Origin: Pyrobaculum ferrireducens
Lineage (GTDB): Archaea > Thermoproteota > Thermoprotei > Thermoproteales > Thermoproteaceae
Direction: 5' to 3'
Assembly: GCF_000234805.1 (NCBI RefSeq)
Contig: NC_016645.1
Location: 372,001 to 436,000, forward strand
DNA length: 64,000 nt
Positions 32,414 through 41,772 of the stretch are shown here, in pieces (the stretch's first letter is position 1; every line of letters starts with the position of its first letter). A program made the position numbers and the translations under genes. The notes beneath the pieces were generated by a model, which was not told the DNA's origin, did not search any database, and was given only the letters and a program-made list of their open reading frames with translations.

Positions 32414-35400
32414 GTGGAGGAGGCTAAAAAGAGAAGTGTGGATGTGGGCAAGGCGCTTGAGGAGCTGTTTAGCATTGTTGACCAGCTCTCCAGAGGCGCG
32501 GCCGACGTGGACGAGAAGAGGCTAATGAGGCTTGTAAATCTGCTGGAGGCGGCTGGGGGCGTTAAGGTGCCTTGGCTGGGGCCTGTGGCTGAGGCTATGA
32601 GGAATTGGTACAACCCGGCGCGTAGCAAAGATGAGAGGAGTGAGTACGCCAAGGCGGCTTTTCTAATCGTTTGGGCTGTGCTTCAGCGCCGCGCCCATGA
32701 GCTGTACGACAAGTTGGCGGAAATGTGGAATGTGAGAAAAGAAGCCGCCGCGGTTTTGAAGCAGGCATTGGAGAGTAACGACAGAGAGAAGTGGAGGGAG
32801 TTCTACAGCTTAGTGAAGAGGCTGGAGGAGGCCGAGGGGGAGGTGTTGAAAATCGCTGAAGAAGTGGCGAACGAGCTTAATACCATCGCCGTCCATCTAA
32901 AAACCGCGGCTAAGAAGAAGGGCGCGAAAGCGCTGGAGAAGGTGGCGAGGTGGATAGAGGTTGACGCGTTGGAGGCGAGGAGGCTGGCAGAGGCGACTAG
33001 GGATGAACTGTCTAGATTCTCCGGCGCCAGCTACGGCACTAGGGCCGTGGCGTATCTAAAGGCCATTGTTAACGACAACATCGTTGGCTTGACTGTGCTG
33101 AGGGCTTTCGCCGCGGAGGACTTAGCCACGCTTGTTGCTAATACGCCGCACGGTGCGTACAACAAGTTGCTGGGGAGGGCGCAAAGCGTTAAACGCGGGC
33201 AGCTGAGGGACCTTCCGCTCGAGGAGAGGCTGGCGGTGGAGCTGGGCAGAGCTTTGAGATACGCAAAAGTGAATGACGAGCTGAAGCCTCTGGTGGAGGC
33301 GTTCGAGAGTGGGAAGGCGAGGGTGGAGAAGAGGGGCGAAGGCAAATACGTCATATACGCCGGCGGTAAGACTGCGGAACTGAAGCTCTTGAGGGGCGGC
33401 GGCGCTATGCTATACGTCGACGAGCTGACCGGCCCGCTGGCTGACAAAAAGCTGGCCGAGGCAAGGAAGGCTGTTGAGAAGTACGAGGAGATGCTGAAGA
33501 AGGGCAAGGCGCCTCTGCCTCTGCGCGAGGCGCAGGACGGCTGGCTGTTGAGCGATGTCACTGTGGAGGAGACTAGCGAAGAGGGGCGCAGAGTAGTTAT
33601 GGTAACAGCCTCCTTGGAGCAGGTCGTGGTGTTCCTCTCCGCCTTCGGCGTAAGGGCGGGGGAGATACACTGGGGCCGAGGCGAGAGGGGGAAGAAGCCT
33701 GTCAAGATCTATGTTAAGCACTTCGACGTGACTAGCGAGGGGCTGAGGCCTGCGTACCAAGTTGAGCTTTACGACAAATACGCAGAGGAGGCGTGGGATA
33801 GGCTGTCGGCGGCGCGCACTATGCCTAAGGAGGAGAGGGAGAGGCTCATAGATTTCGTGGCTAGGCTACTAGAAGGCTCTGGCGTAGATCACGAGGCGTT
33901 TAGGCAGAAGCTGGAGAAGTGGATCGGCGAGTGGCTTGCAAAGGCGCCGGGTCTCAAGGAGCACCGGGTGTTCCACACTCTGGTGAACTCCTTGAGAGAG
34001 ATGGCGAGAAGCGAGCAGGATGCTGGAAAGCGCGAGGTTGCGAGGAGGCGCGCCGTGGGTATGCTCCTCCACGCAGTGCTGGGGGACGGAACCGTGACGG
34101 CGGACAAGGTTGTGCTATACGTCGGCGGCGGGGAGGAGGATGAAGTGCCGGCGGAGGTCAAGGCGGATCTCTACTACGCACTGTTGAGGGCGTTGGGGTG
34201 CCAGCCGAAGATGTACAAAGCCAAGGGCACCATCAACGTAATTCTGTATGGCGAAGAGGCTAAGAAATTCGCCCGGGCCGCTCTGCCGCATCTAGTGGGC
34301 CTCGAACGCGTGCTTGAGGCTGTGAAAAGAGATGAGCAAATTTATTCCAAAGTTGTAAAGATGATTGACATCGCTAGGGCTGAGAGGGTCAAGGCGTGGA
34401 TTAAGGACTTGACTACGGAGGGTAAGATGCTCAGGTCTAGGCTGGTAGTTGAGGCAGACGGCGTAGCGGCGGAGTACCAGATGTACCTGCGTAAAGACAA
34501 TGAAGTAGTGCTTGAATTCGGCACAACTAACCGCGAAGAGGCTGAGCGGAGGGCGGCGGTGCTGAGGGCAGTGGGCGTGATGGTGGAAGTTGACAAACGC
34601 CACAACAAAGCCCGCAACCGCGACGTGTGGCGCATACAGGTCTCGACCAACGCCCTAGCCGCCGAGTCGGTACACGAGGCTGTTAGAAAGGCGGTGTTGG
34701 AGTTCCTCAAGCAGTGCAGAGAGGCTGGCGCCATCGAAGAGGAGGCGTACAGACGCCTCGCCGCGAAGTTCGAGAGGGGCATGCCGGAGTGGGGCGAGGT
34801 AAGGCTCTCTGTGGATCTGACGAGAGGCGGCGCTGTGGTTGTGGAGTACAGACCCAACGACCCCCAGTCCTTCAGCAAGGCGGTGGAGTTTCTGAGGAAG
34901 CTCGGCCTAAGGGACACATGTGAAAGCGACTGGTGCTTTATCCACTTCACGGCTAGGGAGCCTAGAGAGGGTAAGGAGGGCTATGTCTACATCACCGCCG
35001 ACGGACTTAAGTACATCGGCTGGCTGGCCAGCCGCGGCGATGAGAGGGCGCAGTGGCTGAAAGAAATGTTGCTAAAGGAGGCCGAGGTTAAGGGCGTCAA
35101 GATGCGTGAACAGCTAGAGCAACGCTTCGGCGAGGGGGAAGAGTGGGGTAGAGTAAGGCCGCCCGTCGAGAGGGAGGTTGAGGTTGAGGGCAGGAGGCTA
35201 AAGGTGCTAATCGAGGAGGTGGAGGCCGGCGTAGAACGCGGCAGAGCAAAAGAGCTCTTAGTCGTCAAAATAAGGGCAAAGGTGTTTGAGGGGAACAGCG
35301 AAGTAGCGGTAGAGAAGGAGGCGAAGTTTTACAAAGAGAGGCGCGGTGCCGTGAGAGGCTACGTCAACATACACGCCGGCGCCAAGGGTGGGCCAGAGGC

Positions 35401-35554
35401 GGACTACGTGAGGACGGCGGCTGTGTTGAAGGTCTTGGGGGTGGAGAAGTGGAGCAGAAAACCAAATCAGATACAGCTCACCAGAGACGCCCTGGATGCG
35501 CTGATGAGGCTGGAGCCTGTGTGCAGAGCTTTGGGCATATGCCAAAAAGCTTAA
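32414..35554 (+). CDS. PaREP2b family protein, long copy
   Basis: 1046 residues from GTG 32414; the frame is open upstream to 32342 and joins the PaREP2a part if one G is removed. The first 330 residues are helical, followed by alternating strand-helix domains. HAVLGDGTVTADK with LGDG at 556-559 is the clearest motif and is shared with the remnant at 71-1820 (MGDG) and the orphan at 1983-3293 (LGDG). The last 400 residues are nearly collinear with the remnant. The layout of short strands, EEAERRAALLRAVGV helices and IHFTAREP-type strands repeats, suggesting duplicated beta-alpha domains. LAGLIDADG-like nuclease ancestry is a hypothesis only. The stop codon lies in a tRNA-type TATA box. Confidence 0.75.
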   Translation: MEEAKKRSVDVGKALEELFSIVDQLSRGAADVDEKRLMRLVNLLEAAGGVKVPWLGPVAEAMRNWYNPARSKDERSEYAKAAFLIVWAVLQRRAHELYDKLAEMWNVRKEAAAVLKQALESNDREKWREFYSLVKRLEEAEGEVLKIAEEVANELNTIAVHLKTAAKKKGAKALEKVARWIEVDALEARRLAEATRDELSRFSGASYGTRAVAYLKAIVNDNIVGLTVLRAFAAEDLATLVANTPHGAYNKLLGRAQSVKRGQLRDLPLEERLAVELGRALRYAKVNDELKPLVEAFESGKARVEKRGEGKYVIYAGGKTAELKLLRGGGAMLYVDELTGPLADKKLAEARKAVEKYEEMLKKGKAPLPLREAQDGWLLSDVTVEETSEEGRRVVMVTASLEQVVVFLSAFGVRAGEIHWGRGERGKKPVKIYVKHFDVTSEGLRPAYQVELYDKYAEEAWDRLSAARTMPKEERERLIDFVARLLEGSGVDHEAFRQKLEKWIGEWLAKAPGLKEHRVFHTLVNSLREMARSEQDAGKREVARRRAVGMLLHAVLGDGTVTADKVVLYVGGGEEDEVPAEVKADLYYALLRALGCQPKMYKAKGTINVILYGEEAKKFARAALPHLVGLERVLEAVKRDEQIYSKVVKMIDIARAERVKAWIKDLTTEGKMLRSRLVVEADGVAAEYQMYLRKDNEVVLEFGTTNREEAERRAAVLRAVGVMVEVDKRHNKARNRDVWRIQVSTNALAAESVHEAVRKAVLEFLKQCREAGAIEEEAYRRLAAKFERGMPEWGEVRLSVDLTRGGAVVVEYRPNDPQSFSKAVEFLRKLGLRDTCESDWCFIHFTAREPREGKEGYVYITADGLKYIGWLASRGDERAQWLKEMLLKEAEVKGVKMREQLEQRFGEGEEWGRVRPPVEREVEVEGRRLKVLIEEVEAGVERGRAKELLVVKIRAKVFEGNSEVAVEKEAKFYKERRGAVRGYVNIHAGAKGGPEADYVRTAAVLKVLGVEKWSRKPNQIQLTRDALDALMRLEPVCRALGICQKA

Positions 35555-36444: not shown

Positions 36445-36954
36445 TTATCTTTTCCCAGCGTTGGCACATTTGTAAAGCTCCACTGCCGCCTTAGCCATGT
36501 CAAGTGTAGCTATTGACCTAACTCTATAGGGAGGCACGCCCACGGCTCTGTGCACCGCCATCTTCTCGTCGAAACGCACCACATGGATCTCTCCCAATCT
36601 GCCGTATTGCCTAAGGAAGTCTCTACCTGGACGCTTAATCACCTTGTTCAGCACCACCCCCAACACCGGCTTCCTGACTATTGCGTGCACCACCTCGACG
36701 GAGGCCAGCGTCTGGTAGTCCTCGTCAGCAACATAGATAACAAAGTTGCAACGGAGAAGCTCAGCCAGGTGGCGCCTATCAGTCAATTGAAAGGCTGGGA
36801 AGTCGACGATCAGAAGCCCAGAGCCGGGGCTTCCCCCCAGCGGCTTCACCACACGCGCCGGGTTGCCCAGCGCCCTCCAGACAAACGCCATTAGCTCGGC
36901 AAATGTACTTTTTCCAGTTCCCCCTTTGGCGCCGCTCGTGACGCAGATCCGCAC
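36445..36954 (-). CDS. ParA/MinD-like deviant-Walker ATPase
   Basis: A small ATPase of about 169 residues with the deviant Walker A motif KGGTGKST (residues 10-17 from GTG 36954) and DFPAFQL as a Walker B-like segment. It is shorter than typical MinD or ParA (about 250 residues) and lacks a membrane-targeting helix. An upstream ATG at 36978 would add eight residues. GTG 36954 places it at the same distance (27.5 bp) from CTATAG at 36979-36984 as the divergent small frame at 37009. Partner genes are not seen nearby, so its cargo is unknown. Confidence 0.75.
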   Translation of the reverse strand: MRICVTSGAKGGTGKSTFAELMAFVWRALGNPARVVKPLGGSPGSGLLIVDFPAFQLTDRRHLAELLRCNFVIYVADEDYQTLASVEVVHAIVRKPVLGVVLNKVIKRPGRDFLRQYGRLGEIHVVRFDEKMAVHRAVGVPPYRVRSIATLDMAKAAVELYKCANAGKR

Positions 36955-37008
36955 ACATTGTATTGCATTTATACCCACCTATAGTTAGCTAAAAAGCGTA
37001 TATGGGAC

Positions 37009-37623: not shown

Positions 37624-37652
37624 TATCTACAGAACATATAAGACGAGGCGCT
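37624..37652 (-). repeat. 29-bp inverted repeat, right arm, spanning the ATPase-operon promoter
   Basis: Reverse complement of 35589-35617 with one mismatch. It includes ACATATAAGA, the TATA box 23 bp before GTG 37663. The left arm therefore carries a copy of this promoter pointing away from the operon. Confidence 0.7.
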
Positions 37653-37662
37653 GAGTTGTTAA

Positions 37663-40521
37663 GTGTACGCCTTTGTCGATCTGCCGTTTAGTCCCAGCGG
37701 GGTGACGCACCTCCTGCGCAGACACAGGACAGTCGGCTTCGACAAGGAGCTCAGAGAGCTGGCTGAGGTGCTGAGGACGGTAAAGGAGGGCAACAACAAC
37801 GTGCTTGCAGTGGTCATCGCGCCTTATGGCTGGGGCAAGAGCGAGTTACTAGACGAGCTGGAGTCCCTGGCAGAGGGGGAGGGGTTCGACGTGTACAGAA
37901 CGGCGCTTTCGCTAGAGGAGGACTTCGTCATAGAGGTGGCGTCGAAAAAACGGGACAAGCCGATGCTGGTCTTAATAGACGAGGCAGATGAGCTCTCCCG
38001 CATCGTCGCGGTTCATAAACTAGGCGCGTTGAGCGACGATAGATTTGTCAAAATGGTGCAGAAAGTCGCCACCTACATAAGAGCCCTCCTAGAGCCCAGG
38101 TCGTACAGATACCTCCTAGGAGAACCAGAGAGGTTTAACAAAGTGGCTATCGTGGCGGCGCTGACGCCGCAGCTCTACTACACCATACTTAAGAACGTGG
38201 TGCCAGATGTCTTCGATCTGACAAGCGGCAGAGTCTACAGAGAGGTGGTAATAGACACGAGATTTCCGTTTTGGCAATTTGTGGAGCTTGTAAAGCAGAG
38301 ACTACTCGCATATTCAGACGACGAGAGAATAAGAGAAATAGAGAGAGGCGAGCTAGACCAGCTGAGCCCCTTCTCTATACATGAGCTGTCGGCGGTGTAC
38401 CACCTGGCGAAGCGGAGAGGGGAGGCCGCGCCTAGGCCTCTGCTGAAGCTAATGGCAAGGCTTTTCCAGATAAAGAAAGAGGGGGGGAGGCTGGCGCGCC
38501 TCCTAAGAGAAGAGGGGTTTGACCTAGATGTAGATGACGAAATTCTGGAACTCGCATTCGCCGCAATACCGGTGAAATACAAAAAGGCGTATCTAAAAGA
38601 GGTGTACCTCTACAGAATACCCTTCGAGGATAAAGACGCCATGAGTGTTGCTAGGGAGTACGTCGCGGCGAGAGGCAAGGAGCTGGACATAAAGGATCCT
38701 AAAAACATATCCTACGAGCCGTACCTGTACTACTCCCTGGTGGAGGGGGGGAGGCTCTTCCTCTACCTAATCGCCGAAGAGGATCTTGCCCTAGAGAGAT
38801 ATTCACTTGGCAGAGGATACATCGTTTCTGAAGACGTGGCGAAGCTCGTCGGCTGGGAGGAGGCGCAGACAATCGCCGCGGTGGCAAAGGAGTACAGCCA
38901 GCGGCTGGAGAACCCAGTAGCCCTGCTGGAAGAAGCCGAGAGGGCGCTGTCTCTGGAGGGAATAAGGCTGAGGCGTTGCTGTGGCTATGCGCTGTGGAAT
39001 AACAACATGGGCCTGCGCGAGGCCTACCTATTCCTGTACATCGACAGAGAGGAGGAGTTGAGGAAAATCTCCGAAGAGCTCTCAGAAGTGGCGTCGCAGG
39101 GCGTCTTAAACGGCTACGTAGTCGACTACCTCAACGTCTTTGTCGTAAGCCGCGTCTTGCTCACCGACACGATACAACAAGCCTTGGCCCCCCTGATGAC
39201 TGCCTACTGGAAGCGCCACTTCCGCGACCCAGTGTCGAAATTCGCCACTGTGGAGATATACGGCGCCGACAAGTACGAGAAGCTGAAACAGGAAATTGTA
39301 AAATACGTGATTGACAAGTTGTTGAAGAGAGGGGAAAAGCCACCCGAGTTTGTAGACGCCGTGAGACTCGGGAGGGAGAAGGCGAGAGAGAACATACTCA
39401 AATACACCATAGCGCTGAAGAAGGGCAGGGAGAAGAAGATCGTGGCGCTTGTAAAAGCCGCCGAGGCGCTGGACGGCGGAGGGGACGTAGAGGGGCTTAG
39501 GTCATACCGCGAAATCGAGGAAATTCTACTCTCAGCCTTCGAAGAGTCGATACATGAGAAAGAACTGAAATCGCTCATAGCGACGCTGTTCCCAGTAAAC
39601 CTATGGAGAGAGATGAGGGAAGAGGACCTCATTGAGTTAATGAAGCTAAGAGGCGTCGTGGTGCCGCTCGGCGAGAGGCTGTATAAGTACAGAGACGACC
39701 TAGCCAAGAGATACATCTCCGAGATCCTGCGCCAGCTAGAGGCTCTCAGAGAGGTAAGAGTCGAGAAGCAGACCCCGCTGGGGCCTGTGAAACTAGTGAA
39801 GAAGATGGACATAGGCGAGTTAAAGACTTCGGTAGCAGACAGACAAGACTATGCCAAGGCCTTGAGAGAAGCTGTGTTGAAACTACACGAAGCCAGGGAA
39901 ATGTACGAGAAAGTCAAAGAAGAACTGGAGCGAGAAGCCGAGGAAAAGGCCAAACTTTTGAGGAAGATATCGACGGTGCTAGACAAGTATCCACAGAGGA
40001 GGAAGTTTATAGATCTAGGCAGGCTAGACGAGAATACTATAAGAAGAGAGGAGTCAATCGTCCAGAAGGCCGAGGAGGCGTTGAAGATCTGGGGCGGCGT
40101 TAGGCAGATGGCCAGCGCAGTGGGCTCGCGGCTAGACGTGGAGAGGGACCTAAAGCTTCTGCTGGAGCTACCGGAGCCCTGGCTCGACGACTACGTGGCG
40201 GCTCTTAAGATATACGCCGCCGAGATCGAGAAGAGATACGGCGCGTTGATGGAGCTGGAGAGGGCTAGAAAAGCCGCCTTGGAGTGGCTAAGGGCTAAGC
40301 TCGGGATTGAGGAAGAGGATTTAGACAAGGCCCTAGACATAGCCGCCGCGAAAACTGGCGTACGTAGAAAGTTGCTAGAGTCCGTGGCCCGCCGGGGAAG
40401 AGGCGCCGTACTAGACGTCGACGAGCTGGCGAAGGAGTCGGGTGTTGAGAAAGAGGAGGTTGAGAGAGATCTAGAAAAGCTCTACAAAGCCCGTGTAATT
40501 GAGAAGAAATATGTCGCCTAG
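37663..40521 (+). CDS. Large AAA+ ATPase of an ATPase-nuclease operon
   Basis: A 952-residue protein. Residues 20-300 form an ORC/Cdc6- or STAND-like AAA+ module with Walker A APYGWGKS (53-60), Walker B MLVLIDEADE (101-110) and a lid-like region (SPFSIHELSAVYHLAKRRGE). The middle (300-700) is unfamiliar and charged. Residues about 735-790 form a coiled coil rich in E, K and L, and the last 70 residues look like a winged helix (LDVDELAKESGVEKEEVERDL). It is not a HerA-type RecA-fold ATPase by motif. ATG of the next gene overlaps the stop by 11 bp and a NurA-like nuclease follows. The start is GTG 37663, 23 bp from ACATATAAGA. I infer an ATP-driven DNA-processing or defence machine. Confidence 0.8.
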   Translation: MYAFVDLPFSPSGVTHLLRRHRTVGFDKELRELAEVLRTVKEGNNNVLAVVIAPYGWGKSELLDELESLAEGEGFDVYRTALSLEEDFVIEVASKKRDKPMLVLIDEADELSRIVAVHKLGALSDDRFVKMVQKVATYIRALLEPRSYRYLLGEPERFNKVAIVAALTPQLYYTILKNVVPDVFDLTSGRVYREVVIDTRFPFWQFVELVKQRLLAYSDDERIREIERGELDQLSPFSIHELSAVYHLAKRRGEAAPRPLLKLMARLFQIKKEGGRLARLLREEGFDLDVDDEILELAFAAIPVKYKKAYLKEVYLYRIPFEDKDAMSVAREYVAARGKELDIKDPKNISYEPYLYYSLVEGGRLFLYLIAEEDLALERYSLGRGYIVSEDVAKLVGWEEAQTIAAVAKEYSQRLENPVALLEEAERALSLEGIRLRRCCGYALWNNNMGLREAYLFLYIDREEELRKISEELSEVASQGVLNGYVVDYLNVFVVSRVLLTDTIQQALAPLMTAYWKRHFRDPVSKFATVEIYGADKYEKLKQEIVKYVIDKLLKRGEKPPEFVDAVRLGREKARENILKYTIALKKGREKKIVALVKAAEALDGGGDVEGLRSYREIEEILLSAFEESIHEKELKSLIATLFPVNLWREMREEDLIELMKLRGVVVPLGERLYKYRDDLAKRYISEILRQLEALREVRVEKQTPLGPVKLVKKMDIGELKTSVADRQDYAKALREAVLKLHEAREMYEKVKEELEREAEEKAKLLRKISTVLDKYPQRRKFIDLGRLDENTIRREESIVQKAEEALKIWGGVRQMASAVGSRLDVERDLKLLLELPEPWLDDYVAALKIYAAEIEKRYGALMELERARKAALEWLRAKLGIEEEDLDKALDIAAAKTGVRRKLLESVARRGRGAVLDVDELAKESGVEKEEVERDLEKLYKARVIEKKYVA

Positions 40522-41023
40522 GATCACAATTTTGAGAGAAGAAGCCGCCGCGGAGGAGGGAGACGTAATAATAGACGCAAGAGGCCAGCCCCAGTTCTTC
40601 GACGTAGTAATCCTAAGCGGCAGAGAGCTGAAGTCCATAGTAGCCACTGGAGCCGTCAGCGCCGGGGTCCCCATAGGCGTGGGTAAGTATACCAAGAAGC
40701 CCGTGGCGGCGGTGATAGGCGAGAAGATATACATCAAGGGGGTACCCCTCACCCTATACGCCGAGATGGGGATTCTCGAAAAGGAGTTGACGGAGGCGCT
40801 CAGCAAAACCAGCCACGAGACGGACATATTGCTTCGAAAGCTAAAAGAAATCGTCGTCGCCGAGAGGCGGCGCCACAAGAGGTCACAAACTCTCTCAATA
40901 CTAGGGCAGTACGTAGCAGGAGAAATTAACGAACTCCCCCCACACCTAGCAGATCTACTGGGGGGGCTGGATAGGGAGTCTATAAGGAAATTATTCGACC
41001 GCCTAGTTGAGGAGATTTACTAA
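40511..41023 (+). CDS. Middle protein of the ATPase-NurA operon, unknown
   Basis: A 170-residue protein starting MSPRITILREEAAAEEGD. The first 80 residues are rich in beta strands and glycine (VVILSGRELKSIVATGAV, then VGKYTKKPVAAVIG), compatible with a small barrel. The C-terminal half is helical and basic, with KEIVVAERRRHKRSQT and a leucine-rich end. A barrel before an ATPase partner recalls the HAS-barrel of HerA, but that is conjecture. It overlaps the ATPase gene by 11 bp and shares one base with the NurA start (TAATG). Confidence 0.65.
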   Translation: MSPRITILREEAAAEEGDVIIDARGQPQFFDVVILSGRELKSIVATGAVSAGVPIGVGKYTKKPVAAVIGEKIYIKGVPLTLYAEMGILEKELTEALSKTSHETDILLRKLKEIVVAERRRHKRSQTLSILGQYVAGEINELPPHLADLLGGLDRESIRKLFDRLVEEIY

Positions 41024-41772
41024 TGAGAGACCTCCTATCCGCCGTGCTCAGGCTGGCTGAGTTGGAGACCCCGCCGAGGCTCCTGGAGATACCCAGAGAG
41101 CTGAGTGAATTAGTCACTCCATGTGAGGAGGGGGGTAAGCCTATTGAGTACTACGCGGTAGACTCCGGCTACGTTGTGCAGAGGGCAGGCCCACGAGACA
41201 TCCTAATACAGTCAATAGTCGCCATCGGGCGAGACATCAAGAGAAAATACATCGTCACTACAGTGACGGGCGATCCCCACGTCGAAGCGCGCATCCGGGA
41301 AATACGCTTTGCAGAGTTCATAAACTCAGACATAGTGCTGGTGGACGGCCCCCTCACGCCCTATGTAAACACGGCCAGAATCGTGGGGGTATCCAAAGAT
41401 CCGCGGCTTGCGAGATACGGGCCGAGAATACCCGACGCAGATCTAAGAGACAAATTCACAAAACTCTCCAGATACGTAGGGGAGAGGGGAGTCGTAGAAG
41501 CTCTGTTAGCCAGAGCCCCCTCAGGCTCGTATCTACCCCCGGTGGATCTAGGGGAGCTGGCTGGCACATTTTTCAAATCAGACTGGGTAATATATGTAGA
41601 GTTTCCAAAAAGCTATAGGCCGGAGGTCTTGTGCCAGCTATTTAGGAGGTATCCCATAAGGCTGAGGCTGGCGCATCACTTGGCAAAGGTTAATAGAGAG
41701 TATCTAAAAACAGTGAAGATAATGCTGTCAACGGTACTGGGCGCGCCGCCTCGTTTCAGGGATTTTCTATAA
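41023..41772 (+). CDS. NurA-like nuclease
   Basis: A 249-residue protein with features of the NurA domain: an early acidic strand, YYAVDSGYV, with D47; an RDILIQSIVAIG strand; and a second acidic strand, DIVLVDGPL, with D108. These are plausible metal ligands of the RNase H-like nuclease core. NurA is a 5'-3' nuclease that normally pairs with the HerA translocase in DNA end resection. Here it is coupled to a different type of ATPase and no Mre11 or Rad50 is encoded in the window. The 3' end overlaps the stop of the convergent microprotein gene. Confidence 0.75.
   Translation: MRDLLSAVLRLAELETPPRLLEIPRELSELVTPCEEGGKPIEYYAVDSGYVVQRAGPRDILIQSIVAIGRDIKRKYIVTTVTGDPHVEARIREIRFAEFINSDIVLVDGPLTPYVNTARIVGVSKDPRLARYGPRIPDADLRDKFTKLSRYVGERGVVEALLARAPSGSYLPPVDLGELAGTFFKSDWVIYVEFPKSYRPEVLCQLFRRYPIRLRLAHHLAKVNREYLKTVKIMLSTVLGAPPRFRDFL

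Follow-up and report, generated by a model that had tools for sequence, protein, structure and literature searches.

An order-wide ATPase and NurA gene set in Thermoproteales with a predicted role in DNA processing

Three overlapping genes at the Pyrobaculum ferrireducens locus

The DNA analyzed here, called the window below, is a 64-kb stretch of the Pyrobaculum ferrireducens chromosome (NC_016645.1, positions 372,001 to 436,000 of the forward strand). It lies in a genome of 2.47 Mb, for which the nearest named relatives found are Pyrobaculum oguniense TE7, Pyrobaculum sp. WP30, and Thermoproteus sp. AZ2. Calls of open reading frames (ORFs) place three overlapping genes on its + strand, which encode a large AAA+ ATPase, a small middle protein, and a nuclease of the NurA family. 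The same three genes are conserved together in the order Thermoproteales. The features of the locus, in window coordinates, are as follows.

37635-37642, + strand: catataag, a possible TATA element picked by eye, with its centre about 25 nt ahead of the GTG
37663-40521, + strand: 952-aa AAA+ ATPase with a coiled coil and a C-terminal winged helix; GTG start
37819-37842, + strand: Walker A motif APYGWGKS, residues 53-60; Y55, G56, G58, and K59 invariant in 34 homologues
37963-37992, + strand: Walker B motif MLVLIDEADE, residues 101-110; D106, E107, D109, and E110 invariant in 34 homologues
39841-40122, + strand: coiled-coil helices, residues 727-820; AlphaFold secondary structure from a low-confidence model
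40321-40512, + strand: C-terminal winged-helix region, residues 887-950; model helices, with weak helix-turn-helix (HTH) matches here and stronger ones in homologues
40511-41023, + strand: 170-aa middle protein; ATG start
41023-41772, + strand: 249-aa NurA-family nuclease; ATG start; PF09376 above cut-off
41161-41163, + strand: codon of nuclease D47, which aligns with the Asp in AIDGG of 2ygk (position 58 by our own count)
41299-41301, + strand: codon of nuclease E93, an invariant acidic residue
41344-41346, + strand: codon of nuclease D108, an invariant acidic residue in a DG motif

The ATG of the middle gene at 40511 lies 11 bp ahead of the end of the ATPase stop codon, so that these two genes overlap by 11 bp, and the second and third genes share 1 bp at TAATG. 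An alternative TTG start at 40499 would possibly lengthen the middle gene.

By its sequence, the 249-aa nuclease is a real NurA that keeps the catalytic Asp. PF09376 matches it at 6.8e-9 (36.0 bits against a cut-off of 21), and a profile built from 35 orthologues retrieves the solved NurA 2ygk at 5.9e-8. D47, E93, and D108 are invariant in all 35 rows. In Sulfolobus NurA, the D58A change is described as abolishing activity on linear DNA and retaining nicking (PMC4641729).

The ATPase is less easily placed. In addition to the cores of the Walker motifs, T168-P169, G189-R190, and P257-R258 are invariant in the 34 aligned rows. The window protein itself reaches no Pfam or NCBIfam cut-off, and in Pfam it has no match to DUF87 or the HAS-barrel. 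Among the 34 members, AAA_16 is matched by 28 (best 2.9e-5) and nSTAND_NTPase5 by 25. In a structure comparison, AAA+ rows of a clamp loader, ORC, and RuvB appear at Z of at most 6.8 amid unrelated ones, the model being weak. The label "ORC/STAND-like AAA+" is thus fair but not firm. Toward the C-terminus, a second stretch of coiled-coil helices covers residues 840-880 in the same AlphaFold model, which was made from four sequences and has a mean predicted local distance difference test (pLDDT) score of 55, with means of 53-84 over the coiled-coil blocks. The winged HTH (wHTH) end matches MarR_2 in 14, TrmB in 13, and HTH_24 in seven of the 34 members; among the six members whose scores were compared with cut-offs, one HTH_24 match (in L068) is the sole pass.

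The middle protein has a strand-rich N-terminal half, mostly below pLDDT 50 in its AlphaFold model, and a helical C-terminal half, with E118, R119, and Y170 unchanged throughout the 36 rows. For the window protein, no family was found in Pfam, NCBIfam, PADLOC, or PHROGs. The 36 members give scattered weak matches to 16 families (best 0.0029), with PTPlike_phytase in five of them. It was considered as a split-off HAS-barrel, the NurA-binding part of HerA, and may be one, but the HAS-barrel is not among the 16 families and Foldseek gave no match at E of 0.001.

The original prediction, made from the letters of the window alone, had described most of this: overlaps of 11 and 1 bp, a NurA-like nuclease with D47 and D108, a middle protein without known relatives, and, in place of an adjacent HerA, an ORC/STAND-like AAA+ protein with the two Walker motifs, a coiled coil, and a C-terminal winged helix. 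The ORF coordinates, family matches, and invariant residues agree with these points, as do the model helices at their low confidence, and family and Foldseek searches with the middle protein came back empty.

Distribution and inheritance in the Thermoproteales

The ATPase is present in 41 of 45 genomes of the order, including all 25 near-complete ones; completeness is 54-88% in the four that lack it. It was found in none of 36 other genomes of the class. In a sample of the phylum (398 genomes), the AAA+ module was detected in 39 members of the order and as a weak match in nine genomes outside it. For the middle protein, with 397 genomes sampled, the counts are 38 inside the order and three weak matches outside. 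The nine weak AAA+ matches were not accepted as members. Two led to the operon of family f32 described below, four were short P-loop matches (L096-L099), and the remaining three (L093-L095) are ORFs of 901-908 aa beside one of 372-375 aa, which were read as Rad50-Mre11; Pfam on L093 gave AAA_22 only.

The neighborhood of the trio was compared in 40 loci from 40 genomes, the window included, with fragmentary G048 alone left out of the 41 ATPase-positive genomes. Long frames of all three genes (ATPase of at least 800 aa, middle protein of at least 100 aa, NurA of at least 180 aa) occur in 34 of these loci. In 33 of the 34, the ATPase, middle, and NurA genes follow one another directly, in this order and on a single strand, so that they travel together in the survey that the original prediction had proposed; L070 is counted among these with broken ATPase and NurA frames. 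The exception is L043 (5586-13564, genome G069), where the ATPase gene runs in the opposite direction about 3.8 kb from the other two, by rearrangement or assembly error. As for the other loci, L051 and L063 are cut by contig ends, and L069, L073, and L074 have broken ATPase frames and keep the middle and NurA genes. In L064, ABC transporter genes follow the ATPase, and the middle and NurA genes were not found. For the aligned sets, A1 drops L063 and L070 from 36 ATPase frames and A6 additionally L044; A2 drops L069 from 37 frames, and A3 drops L069 and L070 from 37.

The ATPase tree has 34 rows; every genus that contributes several of them, six in all, makes up one side of a branch. In family f1, flanking genes are syntenic around the trio. 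Searches of viral, phage, plasmid, and PHROGs sets found no plasmid, phage, or viral relative of it. Judging from these comparisons of sequences, the trio is inherited vertically as a core gene set of the order. Against L044, which is 98% identical, the ratios of nonsynonymous to synonymous substitution rates (dN/dS) are 0.09, 0.29, and 0.17 for the three genes in trio order; dS is saturated or nearly so against relatives more distant than L044.

HerA in the genome and in related operons

NurA is usually taken as the nuclease of HerA. No match to HerA was found in any of the 40 loci, the whole window included, and neither mre11 nor rad50 is among the genes that flank the trio of the window; the search for Mre11-Rad50 in the window went no further than these flanks, and the other 39 loci were not gone through singly for these two genes. 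To this extent the original prediction, which had noted that HerA, Mre11, and Rad50 are all lacking here, holds for the locus. It does not hold for the genome, where an operon of NurA, HerA, Mre11, and Rad50 lies apart from the trio (L052 2824-9044; Mre11 is named from its sequence, and a 702-aa SMC_N protein is taken as Rad50). The separate HerA-NurA pair that had been asked about thus exists. In total, the genome has five NurA genes and nine matches to DUF87. One NurA gene heads the L052 operon, two further ones are directly beside HerA, and a third is 1.5 kb from one, so that the NurA of the window is the sole one of the five without HerA nearby.

The same genome also has a HerA without NurA nearby (G000:C1:1298311-1299873; L161 7309-8874), which lies between EF-1A and a diphthamide synthesis gene among its neighbors. 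We call it the lone HerA. In six genomes, nine lone-HerA neighbors were scanned and no NurA was among them, some neighbors being unscanned. An orthologue occurs in 40 of the 45 genomes of the order and in all 25 near-complete ones (best E of 1e-60 or lower, six of them in pieces); in the remaining five genomes, the matches of 1e-20 to 1e-23 are at the level of paralogues. Two incomplete genomes, G075 and G079, have the lone HerA without the trio. For Pyrobaculum, three pairs of NurA with HerA have been described, together with a HerA group that has no matching NurA (PMC3396285); this group is probably the lone HerA. The trio is like these pairs in belonging to the same genus and having a paralogous NurA; unlike theirs, the NurA of the window has no HerA partner, and for this reason it is likely to stand outside the published pairs.

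Outside the order, HerA shares an operon with NurA and a large ATPase in two lineages. In family f32, which we take for Sulfolobaceae, the order HerA, P-loop ATPase of 960-1020 aa, NurA is found in all 11 loci examined (L091, L092, and L110-L118), and a protein of about 220 aa is recognized between ATPase and NurA in nine of them. The canonical HerA of one f32 genome (G157) matches the solved HerA 4d2i, presumably from Sulfolobus, at 828 bits. The f32 NurA profile aligns with that of the order over 264 columns (94%, E 1.9e-7). The f32 operon may be parallel or distantly related to the trio. A homology between the C-terminal halves of the two middle proteins was examined and is not claimed: the score of 22.2 exceeds the maximum of 17.3 from 100 column shuffles, hhalign gives 8.5%, and the region was picked post hoc.

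The second case is G317, a genome of another family of the phylum, in which genes for a 292-aa protein, a 1196-aa ATPase, NurA, and HerA overlap in that order. Its ATPase and the AAA+ profile of the order align over 254 columns (E 1.5e-10), a stretch that takes in the N-terminal GFxxxPFxxxGVP and the TPQ motif. In a comparison of 82 P-loop ORFs, a set that includes this ATPase itself and two family fragments, it scores 85.5; the best unrelated ORF reaches 74.5 over 93 columns only, and 100 shuffles reach at most 28.5. It is the single match among the 131 genomes of its class sample. More broadly, the NurA profile of the trio matches 98 genomes outside the order. HerA is close to NurA in all 14 loci fetched from among the better matches, and a large ATPase gene belongs to the set in G317 alone; in L187, an 898-aa ORF is on the opposite strand. 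Upstream of the ATPase-NurA-HerA set of G317 is a 437-aa ORF (L181 14509-15822, - strand) with a match to the N-terminal domain of PCNA at 1.2e-5.

Possible roles of the gene set

We tentatively favor the reading that the trio encodes a predicted ATP-controlled NurA complex, which belongs to the basic gene set of Thermoproteales, probably also uses HerA, and would serve chromosome upkeep rather than defense against mobile elements. In this complex, the ORC/STAND-like AAA+ protein would bind DNA and, at ends or stalled structures, spend ATP on loading, opening, or licensing the nuclease. NurA would do the cutting, with the middle protein as a bridge between it and the ATPase. As in the canonical complex, the duplex would be threaded into NurA by a HerA ring whose gene lies outside the operon, most likely the lone HerA. 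Because HerA shares an operon with a large ATPase and NurA outside the order, we think it most likely that the ATPase acts as an additional controller of a machine of the HerA-NurA type instead of taking the place of HerA. A role in housekeeping, in the processing of DNA ends or forks, is favored because inheritance is order-wide and vertical.

The trio resembles the canonical archaeal resection system of NurA, HerA, Mre11, and Rad50 in having a NurA domain with its catalytic Asp and an ATPase gene in a tight operon with it. It differs in that the adjacent ATPase, without HAS-barrel or DUF87, is not HerA, and in that neither mre11 nor rad50 flanks it in the window.

Several points weigh against our reading. 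The pairing of the lone HerA with the NurA of the window is reached by elimination, and four of the nine DUF87 matches are unclassified. G047, which is 82% complete, has the trio and no lone-HerA match. A tree of 38 rows with long branches did not join the lone HerA to the HerA of the f32 operon, and this proposed link was dropped. The f32 and order ATPase profiles align only over 90 columns around the P-loop and Walker B (94%, E 1.2e-7), their middle proteins have no convincing full-length match, and the 292-aa gene of G317 does not match the middle protein of the trio. Foldseek found no match at E of 0.001 or below with the model of the ATPase or with that of the middle protein. Finally, a canonical resection operon is already in the genome, so that a second end-processing set needs a reason.

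The next reading, which we consider rather unlikely, takes the trio as a fixed anti-invader "capture" system of the HerA/FtsK type, in which the AAA+ protein senses or docks on invading DNA, HerA pumps, and NurA destroys. Combinations of HerA/FtsK, Orc/Cdc6 AAA+ proteins, rapidly evolving wHTH proteins, and nucleases are described as recurrent anti-invader systems (PMC10853773; BRC systems, PMC12839542). The trio shares with them an ORC/STAND-like AAA+ protein, a wHTH, the nuclease theme, and HerA in related operons; as to their Orc/Cdc6-clade AAA+ feature, it offers the AAA_16 matches and the ORC row on a weak model given above. An inactive REase inserted in the Orc/Cdc6 protein is a further mark of these systems; over residues 300-590, the model of the ATPase is too poor to show one. 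The middle protein also diverges fast, with 18-29% identity between family f1 and families f2/f3. The G317 relative is isolated, and the f32 form is spread unevenly over the genera of its family (18 of 31 genomes have its ATPase, among them all seven of genus g80). Similarities to defense proteins point the same way. BrxC_BrxD is matched at E of 0.1 or below by 13 of the 34 ATPase members (best 2.1e-5). In PADLOC, the window ATPase matches SngB at 7.3e-4 on the P-loop side and Csa3 at 8e-4 on the wHTH side, and LmuB is the leading match over the 34 members (11 members, best 5.3e-6). However, the PADLOC matches are short P-loop, coiled-coil, or wHTH similarities where their positions are visible. 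BREX BrxC/PglY (PF10923) is also a large AAA+ protein of the ORC/STAND kind; of its matches, the two compared with the cut-off of 22.2 bits reach 15.2 and 17.0 and cover only the P-loop end. The nuclease of the trio is NurA, a name that does not occur in PMC10853773 or PMC12839542, and no HerA or FtsK is in the Thermoproteales operon in the 40 loci, unlike the G317 and f32 operons. The trio is near-universal and vertical in the order (34 aligned ATPases), with syntenic flanks in f1, and the sets of mobile elements searched hold no relative of it, whereas accessory defense genes are not usually inherited in this way.

The original prediction had proposed an alternative DNA-end-processing or anti-mobile-element machine, and its narrower form, in which the AAA+ protein stands in for HerA as the only motor of this NurA, now appears quite improbable. 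The lack of HerA at all 40 loci and the near-constant presence of the ATPase as the neighbor of NurA speak for it. However, in both other lineages where a large ATPase, NurA, and HerA share an operon, the ATPase is added to HerA, and a HerA orthologue, lacking a NurA neighbor where this was shown (G000), occurs in 40 of 45 genomes. Thus, "alternative to HerA" became the less likely part of that proposal; its anti-mobile part is possible but sits poorly with near-universal vertical inheritance. The least probable reading is that the trio prepares ends or single strands for the Ted import or mating system of Thermoproteales (cell-to-cell DNA exchange), and two published points speak for it: HerA-NurA has been proposed to make single-stranded DNA for Ced/Ted transfer (PMC9905601), and in Thermus, efficient DNA donation depends on a NurA-like nuclease next to the HerA-like TdtA (PMC5365140). 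Against it, the Ted loci in the literature reportedly contain HerA, ParA/MinD, and Rad50, with the trio unmentioned in the portions available.

To return to the predicted ATP-controlled NurA complex, the ATPase could position the machine on DNA, by analogy with the logic published for HerA and Orc/Cdc6 AAA+ proteins (PMC10853773; PMC12839542). A wider and doubtful extension is that an unnamed class of giant AAA+/adaptor/NurA machines originated early in Thermoproteota and became a fixed core upkeep apparatus in Thermoproteales, that it persists with HerA in the operon in Sulfolobaceae and scattered lineages, and that the AAA+ protein is now the main engine of this Thermoproteales NurA.

The operon was not found described in the literature searched, which mostly excluded subscription papers, and the main text of PMC1852104, from the literature on core or signature proteins of Thermoproteales, contains no genes bearing the two prefixes tried. 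What is new here is a predicted form of DNA processing in which NurA is teamed with another ATPase, as yet unnamed, and a putative adaptor. AAA+ and adaptor partners fixed across an order would mean at least one further mode of NurA control. Repair and division genes of Thermoproteales are unusual, and the trio would give these archaea a second DNA-processing machine. The HerA-containing operon is in putative Sulfolobaceae, where genetics exists, so that the question is open to direct test.

The trio looks like its own transcription unit, since the GNAT-like ORF upstream is divergent; its other flank is an aminotransferase-like ORF (both names are from reading the sequence). The position of the TATA-like catataag would suit a leaderless mRNA. 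Farther upstream, a 1046-aa ORF at 32414-35554 (+ strand) has no blastp relative at E 1e-5 in 39 related loci, and the genes on both sides of it have relatives in many; it looks like a lineage-specific insertion. At 36445-36978 (- strand), a small CbiA/MinD-like protein (18 bits, under the cut-off) has relatives near the trio in 14 of the 39 loci.

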